Below, piece by piece: positions 16,023-26,119 of a stretch of 44,187 nucleotides of DNA (position 1 is its first letter; each line of letters begins with the position of its first letter). The notes beneath the pieces were generated by a model that ran no database searches, had not been told where the DNA came from, and worked only from the letters and a program-made list of their open reading frames with translations. The translations under genes and the position numbers were made by a program. This DNA is from Clostridiaceae bacterium (lineage in GTDB: Bacteria; Bacillota; Clostridia; Saccharofermentanales; Saccharofermentanaceae), in assembly GCA_012718915.1 (NCBI GenBank), contig JAAYBI010000014.1:1-44187 (forward strand). Direction: 5' to 3'.

Positions 16023-17162
16023 TCAGGATAAACGACTCTCAAAATCGGAATAATTAAATCGACGAATCAGATGATAGCTTCCGCTCTCGTCCGTCACGCC
16101 GATATCCGGAAGAGGTATACCGTTAAAAGTGTTGTTCTTGACCATGGAATATATTGCCATATCGCAAAAAATCAGACGGTCGCCCGGAGAAAGCGGTGAA
16201 TCGAAAGCATAGTCGCCGATGATATCGCCTGCAAGACAAGTCGGACCGCCCAATCGAAATGTGTAAGGTTTTTCTCCCGGTGAGCCGGCGCCGATAATAT
16301 TCGGCCGATAGGGCATTTCGATTACATCCGGCATGTGACAAGCAGCGGAAGTATCGAGAATGGCAATTGGCATACCGTTTTCAAAAACATCAACGACGGT
16401 CGATACCAGATATCCGGCATTCAGAGCAACGGCTTCGCCGGGCTCAAGGTAAACCTCGACGGCGTATTTTGACTTGAATGACTTAATCAGTGCGATGAGT
16501 TTCCCGACATCGTAATCGGCCCGTGTTATATGATGACCACCACCGAAATTAATCCATTTCATTTGGGGAATGAAGCGGCCGAACTTCGACTCGAATGCGG
16601 TCAAAGTGGATTCGAGTGCGTCCGAATTTTGCTCGCAGAGGGTGTGAAAATGAAGTCCTGAAATACCCTCAAGGAGGTCTTCGCGAAAATTATCGATGGT
16701 CACGCCCAACCGCGAAAACGGAGAACAGGGGTCATATATCGCATGGTCCTGTGTAGAACACTCCGGGTTGACCCGGATTCCGCAGGACTTACCCGCAGAC
16801 AATGCCTTATCTCTATACGTTATCCACTGCGAAAATGAATTAAAAACAATGTGATCGGACACCTTAATGATCTCGCTAAAATTCTCGTCGGTGTATGCCG
16901 GCGAAAAAATATGCGTCTCACCGCCGAATCTTTCATGTCCCAACCGTGCCTCATAAAGACCACTGGCTGTCGTACCGTGAAGATATTTGGCAATTAGAGG
17001 ATAGAGATGGAACATTGAGAAGGCTTTTTGTGCCAGCAAAATTCGAGCGCCCGAACGCGCGGATACGTCAGCCAGGCACTTGAGATTTTTTTCTAAAGCA
17101 ACCGGGTCGACGACGTAAGCCGGGGTTCTGATTTTTTCAGTGAATTCAAATGCATCGGTCAT
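16023..17162 (-). CDS. nspC: Carboxynorspermidine/carboxyspermidine decarboxylase
   Basis: PLP enzyme (alanine-racemase fold) that decarboxylates carboxyspermidine to spermidine, or carboxynorspermidine to norspermidine. The 379-residue product shows the PLP lysine in LLAQKAFSMF (K46), the Gly-rich phosphate site EPGEAVALNAGY and the C-terminal CDMAIYSMVKNNTFNG segment typical of NspC. It starts at ATG 17162, sharing one base with the stop of the dehydrogenase gene (TGATG), so the two are translationally coupled. With agmatinase making putrescine and no diaminopropane genes nearby, carboxyspermidine is the more likely substrate. Confidence 0.93.
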   Translation of the reverse strand: MTDAFEFTEKIRTPAYVVDPVALEKNLKCLADVSARSGARILLAQKAFSMFHLYPLIAKYLHGTTASGLYEARLGHERFGGETHIFSPAYTDENFSEIIKVSDHIVFNSFSQWITYRDKALSAGKSCGIRVNPECSTQDHAIYDPCSPFSRLGVTIDNFREDLLEGISGLHFHTLCEQNSDALESTLTAFESKFGRFIPQMKWINFGGGHHITRADYDVGKLIALIKSFKSKYAVEVYLEPGEAVALNAGYLVSTVVDVFENGMPIAILDTSAACHMPDVIEMPYRPNIIGAGSPGEKPYTFRLGGPTCLAGDIIGDYAFDSPLSPGDRLIFCDMAIYSMVKNNTFNGIPLPDIGVTDESGSYHLIRRFNYSDFESRLS

Positions 17163-18361
17163 CAATCAACGATCTCCGGTGAAAAGCTTTCTTGCCATGG
17201 CAGGCCCCAAATATTCAGTGCATCCATAAACGGATCCGGATCAAATTCCTCGACGTTAAATACGCCGGGCTTGCGCCACTTTCCGTTCATGACGAGCATG
17301 GCGCCAATCATCGCCGGCACGCCCGTGGTATAGGAAATGGCCTGAGAGCCGACTTCCCGATAACATTCCTGGTGATCGCAGACGTTATAAATGTAATAGG
17401 TTTTTTCTTTGCCGTCTTTGATGCCTTTGAAAATGCATCCGATATTCGTCTTTCCGACAGTTCTCGGGCCTAAAGATGCCGGATCCGGCAAGACAGCCTT
17501 GAGGAACTGAAGAGGAATAATGGGTCGGCCTTCGTACATAATGGGCTCAATCGATGTCATTCCGACATTTTCGAGGCACTTCAAATGGGTCAGATAGCTC
17601 TGGCCAAAAGTCATAAAGAAGCGAATGCGCTTGATTCCCGGTACGTTTTTAGCTAAAGACTCGATCTCCTCGTGGTGGAGAAGATACATATCTTTTGGAC
17701 CGATTTCCGGAAAATCATAGACGCGTTTAATTTCCATCGGCTCGGTCTCGACCCATCGGCCGTCCTGCCAATAACTGCCGTTCGCCGTGACCTCTCGAAT
17801 GTTAATCTCAGGATTGAAATTGGTCGCGAAGGGATAACCGTGATCGCCCGCGTTTGCATCGAGAATGTCGATTTCGTGAATCTCATCAAAGTGATGCTTG
17901 AGCGCATAAGCAGTGAAAACACCGGTAACTCCGGGATCAAAACCACTTCCGAGAAGAGCGGTTATGCCTTTTTCCCGGAAACGATCGTGATACGCCCATT
18001 GCCATTTATATTCAAATTTTGCGGTATCCTTTGGCTCATAGTTGGCCGTATCAATGTAGTGCGTGCCGGTTTCCAAACAGGCATCCATAATGGTCAAATC
18101 CTGATAGGGTAAGGCCAGATTTAAGACCACATCCGGATGATAAGAGCGAATGAGCTCCACAAGAGCCGCCGTGTCATCGGCATCGACTTGCGCGGTTTGA
18201 ATTTTGACTTTGCCGCCGTCGAGCTTGGTTTTGAGTGCGTCGCACTTCGATACGGTTCGGCTTGCTATCATCATCTCGTCAAACACAGAATCATTTTGAC
18301 ATATTTTGTGGATGGCTACCGAAGCCACACCACCGCAACCAATAACCAGAATCTTTCCCAT
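17162..18361 (-). CDS. Carboxynorspermidine/carboxyspermidine dehydrogenase
   Basis: Saccharopine-dehydrogenase-family enzyme that condenses aspartate semialdehyde with putrescine (or diaminopropane) and reduces the Schiff base with NADPH to carboxyspermidine. The 399-residue protein begins with a Rossmann motif, VIGCGGVAS (6-14), and has the family's GFDPGVTGVF stretch near 139-148. GGGGGT lies about ten bases before ATG 18361. Overlap with nspC distinguishes it from saccharopine dehydrogenase of lysine metabolism. It provides the second half of a SAM-independent spermidine route encoded in the same run as speD and speE. Confidence 0.92.
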   Translation of the reverse strand: MGKILVIGCGGVASVAIHKICQNDSVFDEMMIASRTVSKCDALKTKLDGGKVKIQTAQVDADDTAALVELIRSYHPDVVLNLALPYQDLTIMDACLETGTHYIDTANYEPKDTAKFEYKWQWAYHDRFREKGITALLGSGFDPGVTGVFTAYALKHHFDEIHEIDILDANAGDHGYPFATNFNPEINIREVTANGSYWQDGRWVETEPMEIKRVYDFPEIGPKDMYLLHHEEIESLAKNVPGIKRIRFFMTFGQSYLTHLKCLENVGMTSIEPIMYEGRPIIPLQFLKAVLPDPASLGPRTVGKTNIGCIFKGIKDGKEKTYYIYNVCDHQECYREVGSQAISYTTGVPAMIGAMLVMNGKWRKPGVFNVEEFDPDPFMDALNIWGLPWQESFSPEIVD

Positions 18362-18393: not shown

Positions 18394-19260
18394 TCAGTCT
18401 TGTTCCGCTTTGACTATGGTCAAGCACAGTTCCCGTAATGCTTTGATTGCAGCTGCGACGGAGATGCCGCCGGGATCGTATGTCGGAGAGAGTTCGCACA
18501 AATCGGCACCAATCACATTTGAGCCGGAAAGAGAGTGAATAGCTGTCAGCAATTCTTTGAATGATATTCCGCCGGCTTCCGGAGTGCCGGTACCGGGGAA
18601 GACACCGGGGTCCAATACATCCAGGTCAATGGAAACATACACCGGACGATTTGACAGTGTGGCGACGACTCGCTCAAATCCTTCCAAATCAAAACGTCTG
18701 CATCGCGTATGATTGGCTGCAAATCGGAACTCCTCGACGGTGCCGGAGCGAATGCCGAATTGAAAAATTGAACCGTCGCCGATTAAGTCATGACATCTGC
18801 GCATGACCGTCGCATGTGAAAATTTTTCCCCGATATATTCATCACGTAAGTCGGCATGTGCATCCAGGTGAAGAATACAAAGATCCGGGAAACGCTCAGC
18901 CGCTGCCGATACAGCACCGAGCGTCACAAGATGCTCACCGCCCAGCATGATCGGCATTTTTCCGGAATTATATATCTTCGCCGTGCGTTCTTTTATCATA
19001 GATAAGGTCTTTTGCTTGTCGCCAAAAGGCAAATCCAAATCTCCCGAATCGTATATTGGAAGATCTAAAATATCTTTTTCCAGATAGGGACTATAACTCT
19101 CAAATCCGTAGCTCTCAGCGCGAAAAGCTCGTGGACCGAATCGCGTGCCCGGTCGATACGAGGTCGTACCATCATATGGAGCTCCGAAAATGACCGCTTT
19201 GGCCCGCTTAAGATTACAGTTCAAGCCAAAAATCGATTGACTGCAAATTTCATTCTTCAT
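18394..19260 (-). CDS. speB: Agmatinase (ureohydrolase family)
   Basis: Hydrolyses agmatine to putrescine and urea using two Mn ions. The 288-residue product has all ligand motifs: GGEH (H110), DAHAD (D133, H135, D137) and SIDLDVLDP (D210, D212). GGAGGCA lies about 11 bases before ATG 19260. Direct linkage to an arginine-type decarboxylase and spermidine synthase favours agmatine over arginine, guanidinobutyrate or other ureohydrolase substrates. Confidence 0.94.
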   Translation of the reverse strand: MKNEICSQSIFGLNCNLKRAKAVIFGAPYDGTTSYRPGTRFGPRAFRAESYGFESYSPYLEKDILDLPIYDSGDLDLPFGDKQKTLSMIKERTAKIYNSGKMPIMLGGEHLVTLGAVSAAAERFPDLCILHLDAHADLRDEYIGEKFSHATVMRRCHDLIGDGSIFQFGIRSGTVEEFRFAANHTRCRRFDLEGFERVVATLSNRPVYVSIDLDVLDPGVFPGTGTPEAGGISFKELLTAIHSLSGSNVIGADLCELSPTYDPGGISVAAAIKALRELCLTIVKAEQD

Positions 19261-19289: not shown

Positions 19290-20171
19290 TTAAGCATTAA
19301 GATCGGTCGTCTCATCAACGTTCTCTACGTTCTCTAATAATTCTTGCACATAAACCGGCAATGCAAAAGCACCTCGATGCAAATTCGTGTTGTAGTAACG
19401 TGCTTGTATTCCCCTCGACTTCCATTCCTTGGCGCCTAAATCGCTGATCGGATGGTATTTCTTGGAGGCAAAACCGAAAAGCCAATGTCCGGACGGATAG
19501 GTTGGAATGTGTGCCTGATAAACCCGGCTGATTTTGAAGGATTCAACAATCCGCTTGTGTGCACGTTGCATGGCAATGGCATCATTTTTATAGAAAGGGC
19601 TCTCGTGCTGATTCACCATAATTCCGTCGTCACGAAGAGCACGATCGCAGTTTCCGTAAAATTCTCTCGTGAAAAGACCTTCTCCGGGTCCGAAAGGGTC
19701 GGTGGAATCGACAATAATTAGGTCATAGGCATTTTCGCAATGACGGATATATTTGAGACCGTCCTCGGCATGTACTTTTAGACGTGGATTGTCGTAGCCA
19801 CAAGCCGTGAACGGCAAATACTTTTTGCTAACCTCAATGACTTCTTCGTCAATTTCCACTAAATCAATATGTTCGATTTCCGGATAGCACTTAAGCTCTC
19901 GCAAAATGCCGCCGTCGCCTCCTCCGATAATCAAGACGTCCCGTACATGCGGATGTACGGCCATGGGGATATGAACGAGCATCTCGTGATAAATAAATTC
20001 GTCTTTTTCCGTGAGCATAACAAAGCCATCAAGAGCGAGAATGCGCCCGAGTTCCGGGGAAGAAAAAACATCGATACGTTGAAAATCACTTTGCAAACTG
20101 CAGAGCTGTTGGTCTACGCGAAAAGATAATCGAACGTCCTGCGTATGATATTCAGAAAACCATAGATCCAT
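19290..20171 (-). CDS. speE: Spermidine synthase (polyamine aminopropyltransferase)
   Basis: Transfers the aminopropyl group of decarboxylated SAM to putrescine. The 293-residue protein has the Rossmann nucleotide motif GGGDGG (83-88), acidic LVEIDEEV (104-111) binding the SAM-derived substrate, and VDSTDPFGPGEGL with the catalytic Asp. I start at ATG 20171: GGAGGAT lies about six bases before it, whereas ATG 20192 lacks a site and overlaps the speA stop. The gap to speA is 17 bases. SpeD, two genes upstream, supplies its aminopropyl donor. Confidence 0.95.
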   Translation of the reverse strand: MDLWFSEYHTQDVRLSFRVDQQLCSLQSDFQRIDVFSSPELGRILALDGFVMLTEKDEFIYHEMLVHIPMAVHPHVRDVLIIGGGDGGILRELKCYPEIEHIDLVEIDEEVIEVSKKYLPFTACGYDNPRLKVHAEDGLKYIRHCENAYDLIIVDSTDPFGPGEGLFTREFYGNCDRALRDDGIMVNQHESPFYKNDAIAMQRAHKRIVESFKISRVYQAHIPTYPSGHWLFGFASKKYHPISDLGAKEWKSRGIQARYYNTNLHRGAFALPVYVQELLENVENVDETTDLNA

Positions 20172-20188
20172 GAAAAATCCTCCAATTC

Positions 20189-21637
20189 TCATTTCATGAC
20201 ATTAATAGAACCGACTTTCGGGTCTTCGGTTCCCGTCAAGAAGCTGCCTTTTTCTTTAACGTAACGGATATAATCGATAATCTCTCGGGTCACCATTTCA
20301 CCGGGCGCCAAGATCGGAATTCCCGGTGGGTAACACATGACGAACTCGGCACACACACGACCGGCACTGTCTTCAATCGCAACCGATGTCTTCTCCGAAA
20401 AAAAAGCATCACGGGGCGTATGACGAACCGTTGGGGCAATATACTCCTGGTTGAGCATGCCTGCTCGGCTACGCTTGTGCCGTCGGCGAATCTCGGATAG
20501 TGCACTGACCAAGCGCTCGATATCCCGAAGACGATCCCCGACCGAAAGATAGGCTAAAACATTCCCGACATCACCGAACTCAATTTGAATATCGTACTCG
20601 TCTCTTAAAATGTCATAGACCTCAACGCCGGCCAATCCGATATTAAGTGTATTCACGGAGAGCTTGGTAGTGTCAAAATCAAACACCGTATCACCGTTAA
20701 TACATTCTTTTGAAAATGCGTAATAATCACCGATGCTGTTGATTTCATCGCGTGCGTACTGTGCCATGTCGGCAACTTTAGCAAAAATCGAATCGCCGTT
20801 AAGAGCAAGGTTTTTTCTCGACAGGTCAAGGCTCGAGAGTAAAAGGTAAGAACCGCTCGTCGTCTGGGTCAAATTAATGATCTGACGGACCTGTTCGCCT
20901 GCCACGCGCGGGCCACACAACAAAAAAGAGCTTTGTGTCAAAGATCCGCCGGACTTGTGCATACTGACCGCTGCCATGTCGGCTCCGGCTTGCATGCCCG
21001 ACAGAGGCAGAAGATCTGAAAAACCAAAATGAGTTCCGTGAGCTTCATCGGCCAAAACCAACATATTATTAGCATGAGCCAGCTCGACAATAGCCTTAAG
21101 ATCAGAGCAAACACCATAATAAGTGGGGTTATTTACCAGAATTGCCTTGGCGTTCGGGTGGGTTAGAATCGCTTCTTTCACATCGTTAAGCGCCATGCCG
21201 AGCGGTATTCCCAGGCGCTGGTCAATTCCCGGGTTGACGTAGACCGGAATAGCTCCGGACAAAATCAGTGCGTTAATCGTACTGCGGTGGACATTTCTTG
21301 GAAGAATAATCTGATCGCCTGCCTGACAAGCCGAAATGACCATTGCCTGCACAGCCGAAGTTGTACCGTTGACCATGAAGAATGCGGAAGAGGCCCCGAA
21401 AGCGTCGGCGGCCAATTCTTCAGCCTCGCGAATTACTGAAACCGGGTGGCATAGATTGTCCAGCGGTTTCATGGAATTAACGTCTAAACTCATGCATTTG
21501 GCACCGAGAAAATCCGTCAGCTCGCGATTACCGTGCCCGCGCTTGTGTCCGGGTACGTCAAAAGGCACGACACGAAGCGCCGAAAAATCAGACAAAGCCT
21601 CCGCAATCGGCGCGCGATTGTGGTCAAGACGCGTCAT
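20189..21637 (-). CDS. speA: Orn/Lys/Arg decarboxylase family, probable arginine decarboxylase
   Basis: PLP-dependent fold-I decarboxylase of the short Gram-positive type (482 residues, lacking the wing domain of the E. coli acid-inducible enzymes). The PLP lysine is K228 in [17 protein letters not shown] (195-204) supplies the cofactor Asp D197. B. subtilis SpeA has the same layout. Arginine is favoured because agmatinase lies two genes downstream; lysine or ornithine cannot be excluded from sequence. Its ATG overlaps the speD stop by four bases (ATGA). Confidence 0.9.
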
Positions 21638-22416
21638 CGATCCACGCCCTCGTAAACATTCGAGCCGGAAAAAACTTCTATCATTTCGCGACGAAGGTTG
21701 CTGGTAATCTCAAGCCGTTTTTGAGGCGACACTTCGTAAACATCAGTCTTAAAAAGATAGTTCTGCAAATCGATGTCTTTGATCAGCATTTTAGTGTGAA
21801 AAATATTCGCCTGGTAAACGTTGATATCTATCGCATCATAGCGAGACAAAATTCGGTGGTCTATATAGTCTTGAATAGAGACAATTTTGCGGTCGTTAAA
21901 CAATTTGTGCCCGTCGACATCACGAGTAAATCCGCGCACGCGATAATCCATTGTAATAATATCAGAGTCAAAACTGTTAATGAGATAGTCAAGCGTCGAT
22001 AACGGCGAAATTTCGCCGCAGGTTGCCACATCAATATCAACGCGAAATGTCGCGATAGCCGTCTCCGGATGAAATTCGGGGTAGGTGTGCACGGTAACAT
22101 GACTCTTATCAAGATGGGCCACAATCGTGTCGCTCTCAATGTGAGGAATCATGGCTTCCTCAGCAATCATCAATGTAACACTGGCGCCCTGTGGCTCATA
22201 ATCCTGCTTAGACACGCTGAGTACTTGAGCACCGATCATTTCGGTAAGTGTGGTCAGGATATGCGTCAAACGATCCGAATTATATTGCTCGTCGATATAC
22301 GCAATATAATCGCGCTGCTCACGTTCGGAACGTGCGTAACATACGTCGTATATGTTAAAACTCAAGGACTTCGTTAGGTTGTTAAAGCCATAAAGGCGGA
22401 GTTTTTCGTGCGTCAT
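21634..22416 (-). CDS. speD: S-adenosylmethionine decarboxylase proenzyme
   Basis: Makes decarboxylated SAM, the aminopropyl donor for SpeE. The 260-residue protein matches the E. coli-type (class 1A) enzyme rather than the short Bacillus type. Self-cleavage should occur before S105 in [13 protein letters not shown], leaving a pyruvoyl cofactor on the C-terminal chain. [17 protein letters not shown] is the standard family start, so I use ATG 22416 (GAAAGG about ten bases upstream) rather than the longer frame to 22476. It is the first gene of the minus-strand run, behind a leader of about 365 bases and a good promoter at 22789-22817. Confidence 0.95.
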
Positions 22417-22782
22417 TGCGGTTTGCCTTTCTCGTACAGATAAAAAAACGCCAGTCTTTCCTGCCTGCGGCAACAAAACTTGCGTATGTCATCTAGTAGG
22501 GACATAAAGAGGGAAAAATCCGCAATCCATATCCAGACATGTCCAGAGTCGATGCAGCTAACGCCTTCATACTCTTATTGACCATTCACAAGTTAAGTTG
22601 TGCGCGAGCACAATGGTTATAAAGTAACCAACTTATAAACTTGGGCTTTGAACCCAATCAATAAGGCAACATGAGTTGCCGATCGGCGTTTGACCCGGCT
22701 GTCCGTATGGCCTATTCACCAAAGCCTCAAAGCGATGGCGGTCAAATTGCTCTGTCCTTCTCATCGATAAGAAGAACATAAC
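22417..22782 (-). ncRNA. Long hairpin-rich 5' leader of the speD operon (candidate regulatory RNA)
   Basis: From the predicted start near 22782 to the speD ATG there are about 365 transcribed bases. Read on the minus strand it contains: a long-range stem TTTGACC/GGTCAAA (22740-22746 with 22689-22695) enclosing GGC/GCC helices; GGCAAC-TCAT-GTTGCC; TTGGG-TTCAAAG-CCCAA; GGTTA-CTTTA-TAACC; TTGTGC-TCGC-GCACAA; an ACCATT/AATGGT stem around the last; and TATGTC/GACATA with a 10-base loop. CACAA can pair alternatively with downstream TTGTG, so two exclusive folds are possible. A run of seven T occurs at 22442-22448. I match it to no known riboswitch class. A 48-codon open frame (22633-22779) overlaps part of it. 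Confidence 0.45.
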
Positions 22783-22788
22783 GTTCAA

Positions 22789-22817
22789 AACATATCACGT
22801 TTAGATACTCAAGTCAA
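22789..22817 (-). promoter_or_regulatory. Promoter of the speD polyamine operon
   Basis: Minus strand: TTGACT (22817-22812), 17-base spacer, TATGTT (22794-22789). Good -35, fair -10, ideal spacing. Expected start about 22782, giving the long leader. Confidence 0.7.
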
Positions 22818-23056: not shown

Positions 23057-23070
23057 GCGAAACGTTTCGC
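23057..23070. promoter_or_regulatory. Perfect 14-bp palindrome with central CG
   Basis: GCGAAACGTTTCGC resembles LacI/PurR-family operators in symmetry. No promoter or gene start was found next to it; it directly abuts the 18-bp repeat array. Confidence 0.35.
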
Positions 23071-23157
23071 GTCGTCGTCACACCCAGCGTCGTCGTAACG
23101 CCCGGCGTCGTCGTCACGTCCAACGTCGTCGCCACTCACACCGTCACCGACACCGAC
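23068..23157. repeat. Imperfect 18-bp GTCGTCGTC tandem array
   Basis: Units begin at 23068, 23086, 23104 and 23122, each built on GCGTCGTCGTCACGCCC; a decayed fifth starts at 23140. In the plus frame it reads VVVTP-type hexapeptides, in the minus frame VTTT-type ones. The stretch is C-rich compared with its AT-rich surroundings. The rest of the 22818-23342 gap holds no gene I can support. Confidence 0.7.
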
Positions 23158-23425: not shown

Positions 23426-24706
23426 TCAGCCGAGATCCGAAACGATGCCGATAAATAATATTGTGTTGTCCAGTCGGTCATAGATCGCAAAGATAAACGG
23501 GCGGTCTGCGGTAAATACTTTATATTCATCTTCAACAGGCATCGCGGTGGTGCCTACCATGACTGCCGTAGCTGCAGCGGCCTCCGCGCCTTTTTCGTCG
23601 ACGCGGATATATGTTTTATGAAGAATGTCGGAGATAAACAAATCATTCGGCGAGCCGGTCATCAAGTCAAATTCGGCAGCATCTGTGAACGCAGCATCGA
23701 CACCTAAATCCCGCATCGGGCCGACCATGCCGGTCGAGTAGTCAAATTCAAATTTCGGAAGAGCAATTTTAGTTTCTTCAATACGGCTTCCGTTGATTGC
23801 GGCATCAAATCCGCCGTTTGAGAGATCGAAGATCAGATTTTCAATATCCGAATTTTCGTCTGGGAGAATGAATGCCATCTCAAAAGTGTTATCTTTCTGA
23901 TTATCCAAAGATGCGAACGGAAGACTGATGAGAGAGAAATTATCAGAAGCATAATAGGAAGTGTCAAATTTTGCGTGCATGAAATCTGTCTCATTATCGG
24001 CCGAGTGACCGTGAAATGTTTCCTCATAGGTGTTCTCCGAAATAAAAGGTGTCTCCCACTCTCCGAGAAAAAACACGGCGTTGACCAATACTAATCGGGT
24101 CATCGGATCCAATGGTCCGTCGATAATCGAAGGGATTCTTTCGTTGGTCCTGTCGGATGTCCAAGTATTGATATCCTTTTTCGCGGTATCGGCGTCATTT
24201 TCAAAGTCAACCATGAATATGTCGCTCATGAAAGACCTGGTACAGATATCTAAGTAATCTGAATCAAACTCGAAATCATTTTGCAACCAAATCGAGTTTC
24301 CGGTTTCCATGCCGTTTTGGTTGAGACGCCACATAAGTTGACCGGCGGACTCTTGAATATCCCGACTCGTCAAGTTGCTCATTACAAGCGCATCAAGCAA
24401 CTCATCTCGAGTGTCTCCCTGTGCTCCTTCGGTGGTCATGAGCAAAGCCAGTTGAAGACTTGCAGGGGAGACACAGACGTTGCCACCGTCATATAGCAAA
24501 GCTAATACGTCAAGTCCGTATTGGTTCATCCCTTCAGAAAAGTCAGCGGGGAAAGCCGTGTGTGCTTGTTCTTTTACCTTCGCAATATACTTATCTGTAT
24601 TCTTCCCGGAGGACCCTCTGCTTTCTTTTTCGGACAATTGGCATCCGGAGAAAGCAAATGCGACGGCTGTGAGAATGCTAATTATCGTTGTTAACTGTTT
24701 CTTCAT
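23426..24706 (-). CDS. Serpin lipoprotein (serine protease inhibitor), copy 1
   Basis: Secreted, lipid-anchored serpin of 426 residues. The signal peptide ends in a lipobox-like FSGC. The serpin core is complete: NAVFFLGEWE (s3A), the hinge EKGAEAAAATAV of the reactive loop, and the C-terminal ADRPFIFAIYD signature. The Ala-rich hinge means loop insertion is possible, so it is probably inhibitory. Counting from the hinge Gly as P15 puts P1-P1' at Thr-Ala, which suggests a small-residue-preferring (elastase-like) target; this is a prediction. I start at ATG 24706 (AAAGGA eight bases upstream) rather than 24715. It follows the second serpin gene by about 50 bases. Confidence 0.92.
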   Translation of the reverse strand: MKKQLTTIISILTAVAFAFSGCQLSEKESRGSSGKNTDKYIAKVKEQAHTAFPADFSEGMNQYGLDVLALLYDGGNVCVSPASLQLALLMTTEGAQGDTRDELLDALVMSNLTSRDIQESAGQLMWRLNQNGMETGNSIWLQNDFEFDSDYLDICTRSFMSDIFMVDFENDADTAKKDINTWTSDRTNERIPSIIDGPLDPMTRLVLVNAVFFLGEWETPFISENTYEETFHGHSADNETDFMHAKFDTSYYASDNFSLISLPFASLDNQKDNTFEMAFILPDENSDIENLIFDLSNGGFDAAINGSRIEETKIALPKFEFDYSTGMVGPMRDLGVDAAFTDAAEFDLMTGSPNDLFISDILHKTYIRVDEKGAEAAAATAVMVGTTAMPVEDEYKVFTADRPFIFAIYDRLDNTILFIGIVSDLG

Positions 24707-24757
24707 ATCGTTCATCCTTTCATTTTTTATCGCGAGCAGGTCACGTTAATGGAAATA

Positions 24758-26119
24758 CTATAGTGTTGAGAGTATACCAGAAAACATCATGATGCCGTCA
24801 TTCGTGTCACAAATAGAGAACCAAAACGGACGATTGGCATTGAACTCAAGAACGACTTCCGGCTCGGGAATAGCGGTTTCGTACATGATGACTGCAGTTG
24901 CGGCCGCGGCTTCGGCACCTCCCTCGTCGATTTTGATGTAAGTCTTATGAATAATGTCAGATATGGCAAGTCCGTTATCGCCGTCAGTCATTCCGCTGAA
25001 ATCCGCATCGTCAAAAGCTAGGTTCATCCCGAGAGACCTCATTGTCGACACCATAGATGTGCTGTATTCGTATTCAAACTTTGGGATAGAGATATCGACT
25101 TCTTGGATTGTTGCTGAAGTGACAACTTCAGCAAATGTCATTTCTTCCACTTCGGATATGGCATCATCCATGTCATATCCCGATTTGGGCAAAATGAAAG
25201 ACATTGCATTGGACGATAAGGAATCATCTCCGACAAACGGTAAAGCCAAATATTGAAATGTGTCTCCTTCGAAATACGGTACATTAAACCGGGCATGCAT
25301 AAATGGAACCGAATTTGTTGAATTTACGCCTTTGAAATCTTGATCATATGTATTATCGACGGCAAATTCGTATTTCCAATCGCTCAGAAAATGAAGCGTA
25401 TTGATCAGCACCATTCGCGTGTCGGGGGATAAGTCTTCGACGATTTTAGGGATTTTGTCGTTAGTGTTTTCGGAGGTCCATGAATTGATGTATTCTTCCG
25501 CTTGTTTTGCGTTCGAAATGTAATCGACTTCGAAAAGCTCGGACGCAAATACTTTGGCGCATCGCTCGGCGTAATCGCTTGAAACACCATAATCTTTCTG
25601 GAACCAAATTGAATTCGCTGCATTGAGTCCGTTTTGGTTTGCCCGCCACATGAGTTGGGATATCGTATTATCGAATTCTGCACTCTCAATGTCGGAGATA
25701 TGAAGTGCGCTCAGCATTTCTTCGCGTGTGTCGCCTTTGGCTCCGGTTGCGGTCATCAGTAAAGCCAATTCCAAACTTACCGAAGATATCATTAAATTTT
25801 CGCCGTTATAAAGCGCTTTCAAACTGTTGATACCAAATTGATTCATACCGTCGACTGTATCCGCGTCCATGCTCCGGTAGAATTGTTCAGACAGCGTCGA
25901 TTTTTCTGCCAACGGCGTTGCCAGTAAAGTCGTCGCGTTGGAATTTTTGATTTTGCTGGTTTTCGAGACTTCGGTTATCGAGATTTCGGTTTTCGAGACT
26001 TCGGTTTTCGATTTTTCGGATAGAAGTGTCATGTTATTACATGAACTCAATATACCCATCAATAGAGTAAGAGTTAGTGTAAGAGCCAGTAACTTTGGTC
26101 GTTTATTATGATTATTCAT
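24758..26119 (-). CDS. Serpin lipoprotein, copy 2
   Basis: First gene of the serpin pair: 453 residues with signal peptide and lipobox LSSC near residue 27. A repeated linker follows, built from four 15-bp units. The serpin domain shows NTLHFLSDWK, the hinge DEGGAEAAAATAV and the signature NANRPFWFSICD. Predicted P1-P1' is again Thr-Ala (YET-AIP), while flanking loop residues differ from copy 1, so the two may inhibit different proteases. AGGAGAGGT precedes ATG 26119 and a promoter lies at 26171-26199. The two proteins are clearly paralogues produced by an old duplication. Confidence 0.93.
   Translation of the reverse strand: MNNHNKRPKLLALTLTLTLLMGILSSCNNMTLLSEKSKTEVSKTEISITEVSKTSKIKNSNATTLLATPLAEKSTLSEQFYRSMDADTVDGMNQFGINSLKALYNGENLMISSVSLELALLMTATGAKGDTREEMLSALHISDIESAEFDNTISQLMWRANQNGLNAANSIWFQKDYGVSSDYAERCAKVFASELFEVDYISNAKQAEEYINSWTSENTNDKIPKIVEDLSPDTRMVLINTLHFLSDWKYEFAVDNTYDQDFKGVNSTNSVPFMHARFNVPYFEGDTFQYLALPFVGDDSLSSNAMSFILPKSGYDMDDAISEVEEMTFAEVVTSATIQEVDISIPKFEYEYSTSMVSTMRSLGMNLAFDDADFSGMTDGDNGLAISDIIHKTYIKIDEGGAEAAAATAVIMYETAIPEPEVVLEFNANRPFWFSICDTNDGIMMFSGILSTL
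25960..26019. repeat. Four 15-bp in-frame tandem repeats in the serpin 2 linker
   Basis: Units at 25960, 25975, 25990 and 26005, each a variant of TTTTCGAGACTTCGG. On the coding strand they give a KTEVS-type pentapeptide between lipid anchor and serpin domain. Unit number could change by slippage without shifting frame. Confidence 0.8.

Follow-up and report, generated by a model that had tools for sequence, protein, structure and literature searches.

Polyamines are among the most abundant cations of the cell. Of convincing natural polyamine riboswitch classes, only one has been reported, and it is rare (PMC10853860). It is a variant of the SAM-I class that responds to spermidine (Salvail et al. 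2023, PMC10853860), a transcription-terminating OFF switch located upstream of speB, speD, speE, and ldcC-type genes, and 13 representatives were aligned. Other polyamine gene leaders were described for potE (Veillonella), odc1 (alpha-proteobacteria), speF (Salmonella), potC (marine bacteria), and potABCD, i.e., the ABC-leader of Pasteurellaceae (PMC8632094, PMC2864571, PMC2965389, PMC6386406). In Streptococcus pneumoniae, the interval between SP0915 and SP0916 contains an RNA named F59, srn235, SN20, or Spd_sr49, which was described as a small RNA (PMC3395615, PMC12323649). Its length is approximately 327 nt by the longer annotation (PMC12323649), and it is among the sRNAs for which a lung phenotype was listed (PMC4387999). 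In the open-access literature, no description of this RNA as a riboswitch was found, and the motif surveys consulted there name potE, odc1, and potC polyamine gene motifs, not this RNA.

The RNA considered here is the leader of speD in a window of 44,187 nt, i.e., the whole stretch of clostridial DNA that was analysed. We regard the leader as a member of a Bacillota-wide RNA class of approximately 210-240 nt, which would be a riboswitch of the transcriptional OFF type with a polyamine, most likely spermidine, as its ligand, and we give this reading a probability of about 0.65. Like the switch proposed here, the SAM-I variant class terminates transcription in the presence of spermidine, and it likewise precedes polyamine genes. 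However, the present leader differs from it in sequence, fold, and size, and its class is widespread, whereas the SAM-I variant is rare. The potE, odc1, speF, potC, and Pasteurellaceae leaders also belong to polyamine genes, but they occur in other taxa and have other structures. The features of the leader and the operon are as follows.

22789..22817, minus strand, promoter (-35 TTGACT 22817-22812, 17-nt spacer, -10 TATGTT 22794-22789)
~22786-22782, minus strand, transcription start predicted from the promoter
~22786 to 22442, minus strand, whole RNA element, within the initially annotated interval 22417-22817
22747..22754, minus strand, proposed P1 5' strand (CAGAG 22754-22750, GCAA 22750-22747)
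22690..22745, minus strand, P2 stem (TTGACC 22745-22740 with GGTCAA 22695-22690), enclosing P2a and the invariant core
22683..22744, minus strand, RF02440 match, model positions 1-54, by covariance-model search
22683..22712, minus strand, near-invariant core GGCCATACGGACAGCCGGGTCAAACGCCGA, putative ligand pocket
22665..22680, minus strand, P3 hairpin GGCAAC/GTTGCC
22575..22664, minus strand, P4 closing stem of the 3' domain (TTATTGA 22664-22658 with TCAATAA 22581-22575)
22641..22657, minus strand, P5 hairpin
22585..22639, minus strand, P6 stem (TTTATAAGTT 22639-22630 with AACTTGTGAA 22594-22585), from constrained folding of the window
22629-22615, minus strand, P7, within P6
22613-22598, minus strand, P8 variable hairpin, within P6
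22545..22574, minus strand, 3' element GAGTATGAAGGCGTTAGCTGCATCGACTCT, which in relatives (GAGTAGTAAAAGTA..TTTGCTATATAGACTCT) forms the 3' side of the closing helix P1
22462..22612, minus strand, antiterminator (P8/P6 3' strand 22612-22587 with the terminator 5' arm 22485-22462)
22442..22485, minus strand, intrinsic terminator (stem 22485-22449, then T7 22448-22442; hairpin of -13.6 kcal/mol)
21634..22416, minus strand, speD, S-adenosylmethionine decarboxylase (TIGR03331, 399 bits)
20189..21637, minus strand, speA, Orn/Lys/Arg decarboxylase family (PF01276, 227.9 bits)
19290..20192, minus strand, speE, spermidine synthase (TIGR00417, 319.7 bits)
18394..19260, minus strand, speB, agmatinase (TIGR01230, 270.4 bits)
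17162..18361, minus strand, CASDH, carboxy(nor)spermidine synthase (top match NF043000 at 408 bits, below its cut-off of 800; saccharopine-dehydrogenase fold)
16023..17165, minus strand, CANSDC/nspC, carboxynorspermidine decarboxylase (TIGR01047, 497.2 bits)

The gene order downstream of the leader is thus speD-speA-speE-speB-CASDH-CANSDC. The initial annotation had assigned the leader to no known class and proposed an Rfam search. In that search, the family RF02440, i.e., SpF59_sRNA or ldcC RNA, matched the leader with 50.3 bits and an E-value of 3.2e-06, above the family gathering score of 37.2. It was the only family found in the leader at E<=5 and the sole Rfam match in the entire 44-kb window. 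The leader was also compared with known classes in Rfam 15. A SAM-I-type spermidine riboswitch and a T-box leader were rejected, as neither RF00162 nor a T-box matched the window leader at E<=5; RF00162 was also absent from 20 relatives at the gathering score. The polyamine leaders modelled in Rfam gave no match in the window leader (E<=5) or in the 20 relatives tested.

The window leader and the pneumococcal F59/SpF59 share a common conserved 5' core. The family name implies an sRNA of Streptococcus only, and this does not hold; RF02440 occurs across Clostridia, Negativicutes, and Bacilli. The 54-nt model covers no more than the 5' part of this multi-helix RNA, whose full size is approximately 210-240 nt. 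Conservation in relatives runs far past 54 nt, reaching ...UCAAUAAGAGUAGUAAAAGUA..UUUGCUAUAUAGACUCU, and the RF02440 region always lies upstream of polyamine genes and is continued by a second conserved domain. In Rfam, SpF59 is a streptococcal entry of 54 nt, whereas the RNA here is a leader in cis that also comprises a second domain, the closing helix P1, and a terminator platform. Unlike that filing, it spans Bacillota and also precedes potABCD, speD, and CASDH. In the Streptococcus-like genomes of the survey, the RNA sits ahead of speA.

The second domain was INDEPENDENTLY found with the covariance model R1, which describes the 3' domain alone (126 positions). R1 matched the window at 22546-22665 with 97.9 bits and an E-value of 1.1e-16, as a single copy in the genome. 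In a survey of 398 genomes, each of the 18 with an RF02440 match was also found by R1, at the same place, so the two domains belong to one RNA. Seven more genomes were found by R1, and the RNA preceded speD or speA in all of them. Divergent members detected by R1 only (L195-L199) have altered 5' domains or no P5, and all are placed before speD or speA. A Lactococcus-like subtype (L200, L202, L205, L218-L222) carries another arrangement, CTATGAGG..CCTCACCCAAGAAAACACGCTTGCGC, in place of P6-P8 and retains P2, P3, P4, and the 3' element.

The TTTGACC/GGTCAAA stem noted earlier in the window is real; it corresponds to the conserved P2, which is UGACC/GGUCA in the class and shows compensatory changes. 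The core domain alignment of 58 diverse sequences had 15 invariant and approximately 30 nearly invariant columns, and the core sequence contains GGACAGCC. In P4, six of seven pairs were invariant among 56 sequences. The P6 strands of the class are UUUAUAAGU/ACUUGUGAA, with 97.7% of cells paired and little variation, and those of P7 are GGUUA/UAACC. Because P4, P6, and P7 are nearly invariant, covariation gives no support either way for these helices.

For the other helices, a phylogeny-aware test was used, in which a tree was built from unpaired columns and compensatory double events were compared with 300 null simulations. P2a showed 23 double events against 1.1 in the null, P3 showed 17 (0.9 +- 1.0), P5 showed 5 (0.2 +- 0.4), and P2 showed 2 (0.0), each at P<=1/301. 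The compensating changes that had been suggested as a check on homologous leaders were therefore found in P2, P2a, P3, and P5. In alignment A2, 151 compensatory cells were counted, against 50.5 +- 7 in shuffled controls and at most 47 when slid. When all column pairs of a rougher full-length alignment were compared in the manner of R-scape, fast unpaired columns dominated the signal.

A long-range helix, P1, closes the RNA by pairing CAGAGUCU..GCAAAUAUU with AAUAUUUGC..AGACUCUG. A local GAGU/ACUC hairpin considered for the 3' element was displaced by this pairing with the upstream CAGAGUCU/GCAAAUAUU. In a swap test on 66 relatives, each 5' strand formed a better helix with the 3' strand of the same RNA than with 3' strands taken from other species (z -10.4). 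The P1 of the window and that of its sister L014 have drifted and are weak, and the core is intact in both. By analogy with relatives, CAGAG and GCAA of the window would pair, weakly, with CTCTG (22548-22544) and TTAGC (22561-22557).

The promoter TTGACT-N17-TATGTT of the initial annotation (minus strand, 22817-22789) was confirmed by the consensus scan as a sigma-70-type promoter with 9 of 12 consensus positions and an extended -10 TG. From its position, the predicted start lies approximately 365-370 nt ahead of the speD ATG (22416), in agreement with the earlier estimate. A promoter at the matching place was found in 65 of 70 diverse relatives with at least 9/12 positions (13 expected), and in 58 of 70 with at least 10/12 (2.4 expected). 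The leader of approximately 370 nt folds more stably than shuffled sequences (z -3.9).

The terminator at 22485-22442, just before speD, was absent from the initial annotation. It ends approximately 26 nt upstream of the speD ATG. Among 71 relatives, 67 had a terminator within 200 nt after the RNA, against 6.4 +- 2.6 in shuffles. In genus g4 of the family of the window (L003-L012, L072, L091, L102, L140), the RNAs before speD lack an intrinsic terminator. They have a hairpin, CCATC..GGAAAGGATGG, that overlaps the ribosome-binding site of speD and, judged from its position, may be a translational version of the switch.

In the window, the antiterminator pairing amounts to -22.9 kcal/mol. In a swap test on 97 loci, the P6/P8 strand paired with its own terminator arm at -15.1 kcal/mol and with swapped arms at -12.8 +- 0.25 kcal/mol (z -9.3), and a control segment in the same test showed no effect. 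The two strands also differ together, i.e., Lactococcus-type RNAs have CGCUUG where the others have AACUUG, and their terminators have CAAGCG where the others have CAAGUU. Because the terminator 5' arm of each RNA can pair with the P6/P8 strand of the same aptamer, aptamer folding and antitermination are mutually exclusive, and when P4 was forced, the antiterminator was lost in all 94 models. The computed folds thus contain a mutually exclusive expression platform, as is expected of a riboswitch. Exclusive pairing had been proposed earlier for a CACAA segment and two TTGTG segments. The idea of exclusive pairing stands, but the conserved pair is the P6/P8 3' strand and the terminator arm. The CACAA/TTGTG alternative is present in the window and not conserved in relatives, where the hairpin is the variable P8; the ACCATT/AATGGT stem is likewise present in the window and not conserved.

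In the window leader, the unliganded minimum free energy (MFE) structure is the antiterminated state (-115.6 kcal/mol), and the aptamer with terminator reaches -109.8. In this model, the gap of 5.8 kcal/mol could be bridged by a ligand. By nearest-neighbour folding, however, the antiterminator was favoured in only 11 of 94 truncated transcripts, and the unforced MFE of the full transcript was the terminator in 90 of 94. The thermodynamic model thus disfavours the antiterminator in most relatives, so that the ON state outside the clade of the window would be kinetic. This preference is the chief computational weakness of the reading.

In total, 222 loci (177 distinct) were collected from Clostridia, Negativicutes, Bacilli, and Streptococcaceae. 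RF02440 was present in 14 of 58 near relatives, 18 of 398 genomes drawn across the phylum, 28 of 349 genomes of class Bacilli, and 23 of 117 genomes of the Streptococcaceae-like family. A sequence-pattern scan of named genomes gave at least 118 loci. The hosts listed include Paenibacillus, Bacillus, Neobacillus, Acidaminococcus, Phascolarctobacterium, Blautia, Faecalibacterium, Flavonifractor, Gemmiger, Lachnospiraceae, and Oscillospiraceae, and also MAGs labelled Spirochaetes and Synergistaceae.

The first recognised gene was a polyamine gene in all 170 distinct loci with readable downstream genes, i.e., speD in 52, speA in 50, CASDH in 37, and the importer gene potA in 31, and the RNA was upstream of it and co-oriented in 170/170. 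A conserved, structured cis RNA thus precedes functionally coherent genes, as riboswitches do. The other 7 of the 177 distinct loci had no downstream match in the context count; six had at most approximately 500 nt downstream, and L147 is a speD locus. Three Lactococcus-like genomes carry two copies each, one before speA and one before potA (potABC), and the speA copy precedes speA-speE-speB wherever enough sequence could be read. At L095, a small PII/GlnK-like gene (132 aa) follows the RNA, approximately 197 nt past the core, and precedes a potA-like ATPase gene.

The in silico analysis establishes, with high confidence, that the RNA is structured, cis-regulatory, and linked to polyamines; it shows the RNA with its helices, a promoter and a terminator, antiterminator strands that are complementary, and a gene context of polyamine functions only. 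The candidate riboswitch of the initial annotation is strongly supported by the covarying structure, the polyamine-only context, and the terminator/antiterminator platform, and judged from sequence, the class likely functions as a riboswitch. We infer direct binding of a small molecule, its identity as spermidine, and the sign of regulation. Transcription would begin just upstream of the RNA. When the polyamine is scarce, the P6/P8 3' strand would pair with the terminator 5' arm, and transcription would read through into the polyamine genes. When it is plentiful, the ligand would bind the conserved core (GGCCAUACGGACAGCCGGGUC..GCCGA together with the P4-P6 domain) and hold the P4/P6/P8 fold, and the terminator would form and end transcription ahead of the gene.

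The ligand is probably a polyamine. The CASDH/CANSDC route to spermidine uses neither SAM nor agmatine, and putrescine is its substrate. Because the RNA controls this route and the potABCD importer as well, SAM and agmatine are unlikely ligands, whereas spermidine, also suspected in the initial annotation, is favoured; SAM-dependent synthesis, SAM-independent synthesis, and import have only the polyamine end product in common. From these gene contexts, we lean towards spermidine. The same architecture with another ligand of the pathway, i.e., putrescine, agmatine, carboxyspermidine, dcSAM, or SAM, is a minor possibility. It is encouraged by speA or speD being often the first gene, with agmatine/putrescine and dcSAM as products, and by the size of the core, which would suit a larger ligand. 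However, SAM and agmatine play no part in the CASDH/CANSDC operons or in potABCD import, and spermidine alone is common to all four contexts. Putrescine as the common denominator is less likely than spermidine; it is a substrate, not a product, in the CASDH operons.

Some attenuators act through RNA-binding proteins. A protein that reads the polyamine state and sets terminator against antiterminator could use the same platform, but this is improbable; the element is large and multi-helical, with many near-invariant positions outside the variable helices, and so resembles an aptamer more than an operator, and no regulator gene recurs beside the loci, with an extra PII-like gene at L095 only. 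It is very improbable that the RNA acts in trans as a small RNA, in line with its Streptococcus filing (F59/srn235/SN20), and that its gene position is incidental. Such a role would agree with the short transcript detected in S. pneumoniae (PMC3395615, PMC12323649) and the link to lung fitness (PMC4387999), but in all 170 loci the RNA lies ahead of a polyamine gene in the same orientation, with a terminator between. Given that terminator, a short transcript is the expected product of the leader in the OFF state, and the S. pneumoniae copy could have a secondary trans role. Ribosome-mediated attenuation by a leader peptide, as for speF or odc1, has a negligible probability. Translated uORFs are used by proteobacterial polyamine leaders (PMC6386406, PMC8632094), whereas an SD-preceded ORF of at least 8 codons starts in the leader in only 4 of 72 diverse members, and core length is evenly distributed over the three frames. 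Long leaders fold somewhat by chance, but the covariation, the conservation across classes, and the matched promoter and terminator make an ordinary structured spacer scarcely credible.

As a spermidine riboswitch, the RNA would be a second polyamine class, structurally unrelated to the first and far more widespread, controlling import and synthesis with and without SAM, which we consider somewhat more probable than not. The class would then have escaped notice because all that had been catalogued of it was a 54-nt fragment, under the label of a streptococcal sRNA. If the reading is true, it would be a main polyamine feedback sensor in many gut Clostridia, in Paenibacillus and Bacillus relatives, and in lactococci, and the pneumococcal 'small RNA' with a lung phenotype would be recast as an aborted speA leader. 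The size and the near-invariant core would also pose a structural question, i.e., how an RNA selectively recognizes a flexible polycation.

Two serpin (serine protease inhibitor) genes lie side by side next to the polyamine operon, at 23426-24715 and 24758-26119 (minus strand), and both proteins have lipoprotein-like N-termini. Between the serpin gene and the leader, 18-nt tandem repeats (CGTCGTCGTCAC...) were found at 23058-23147.
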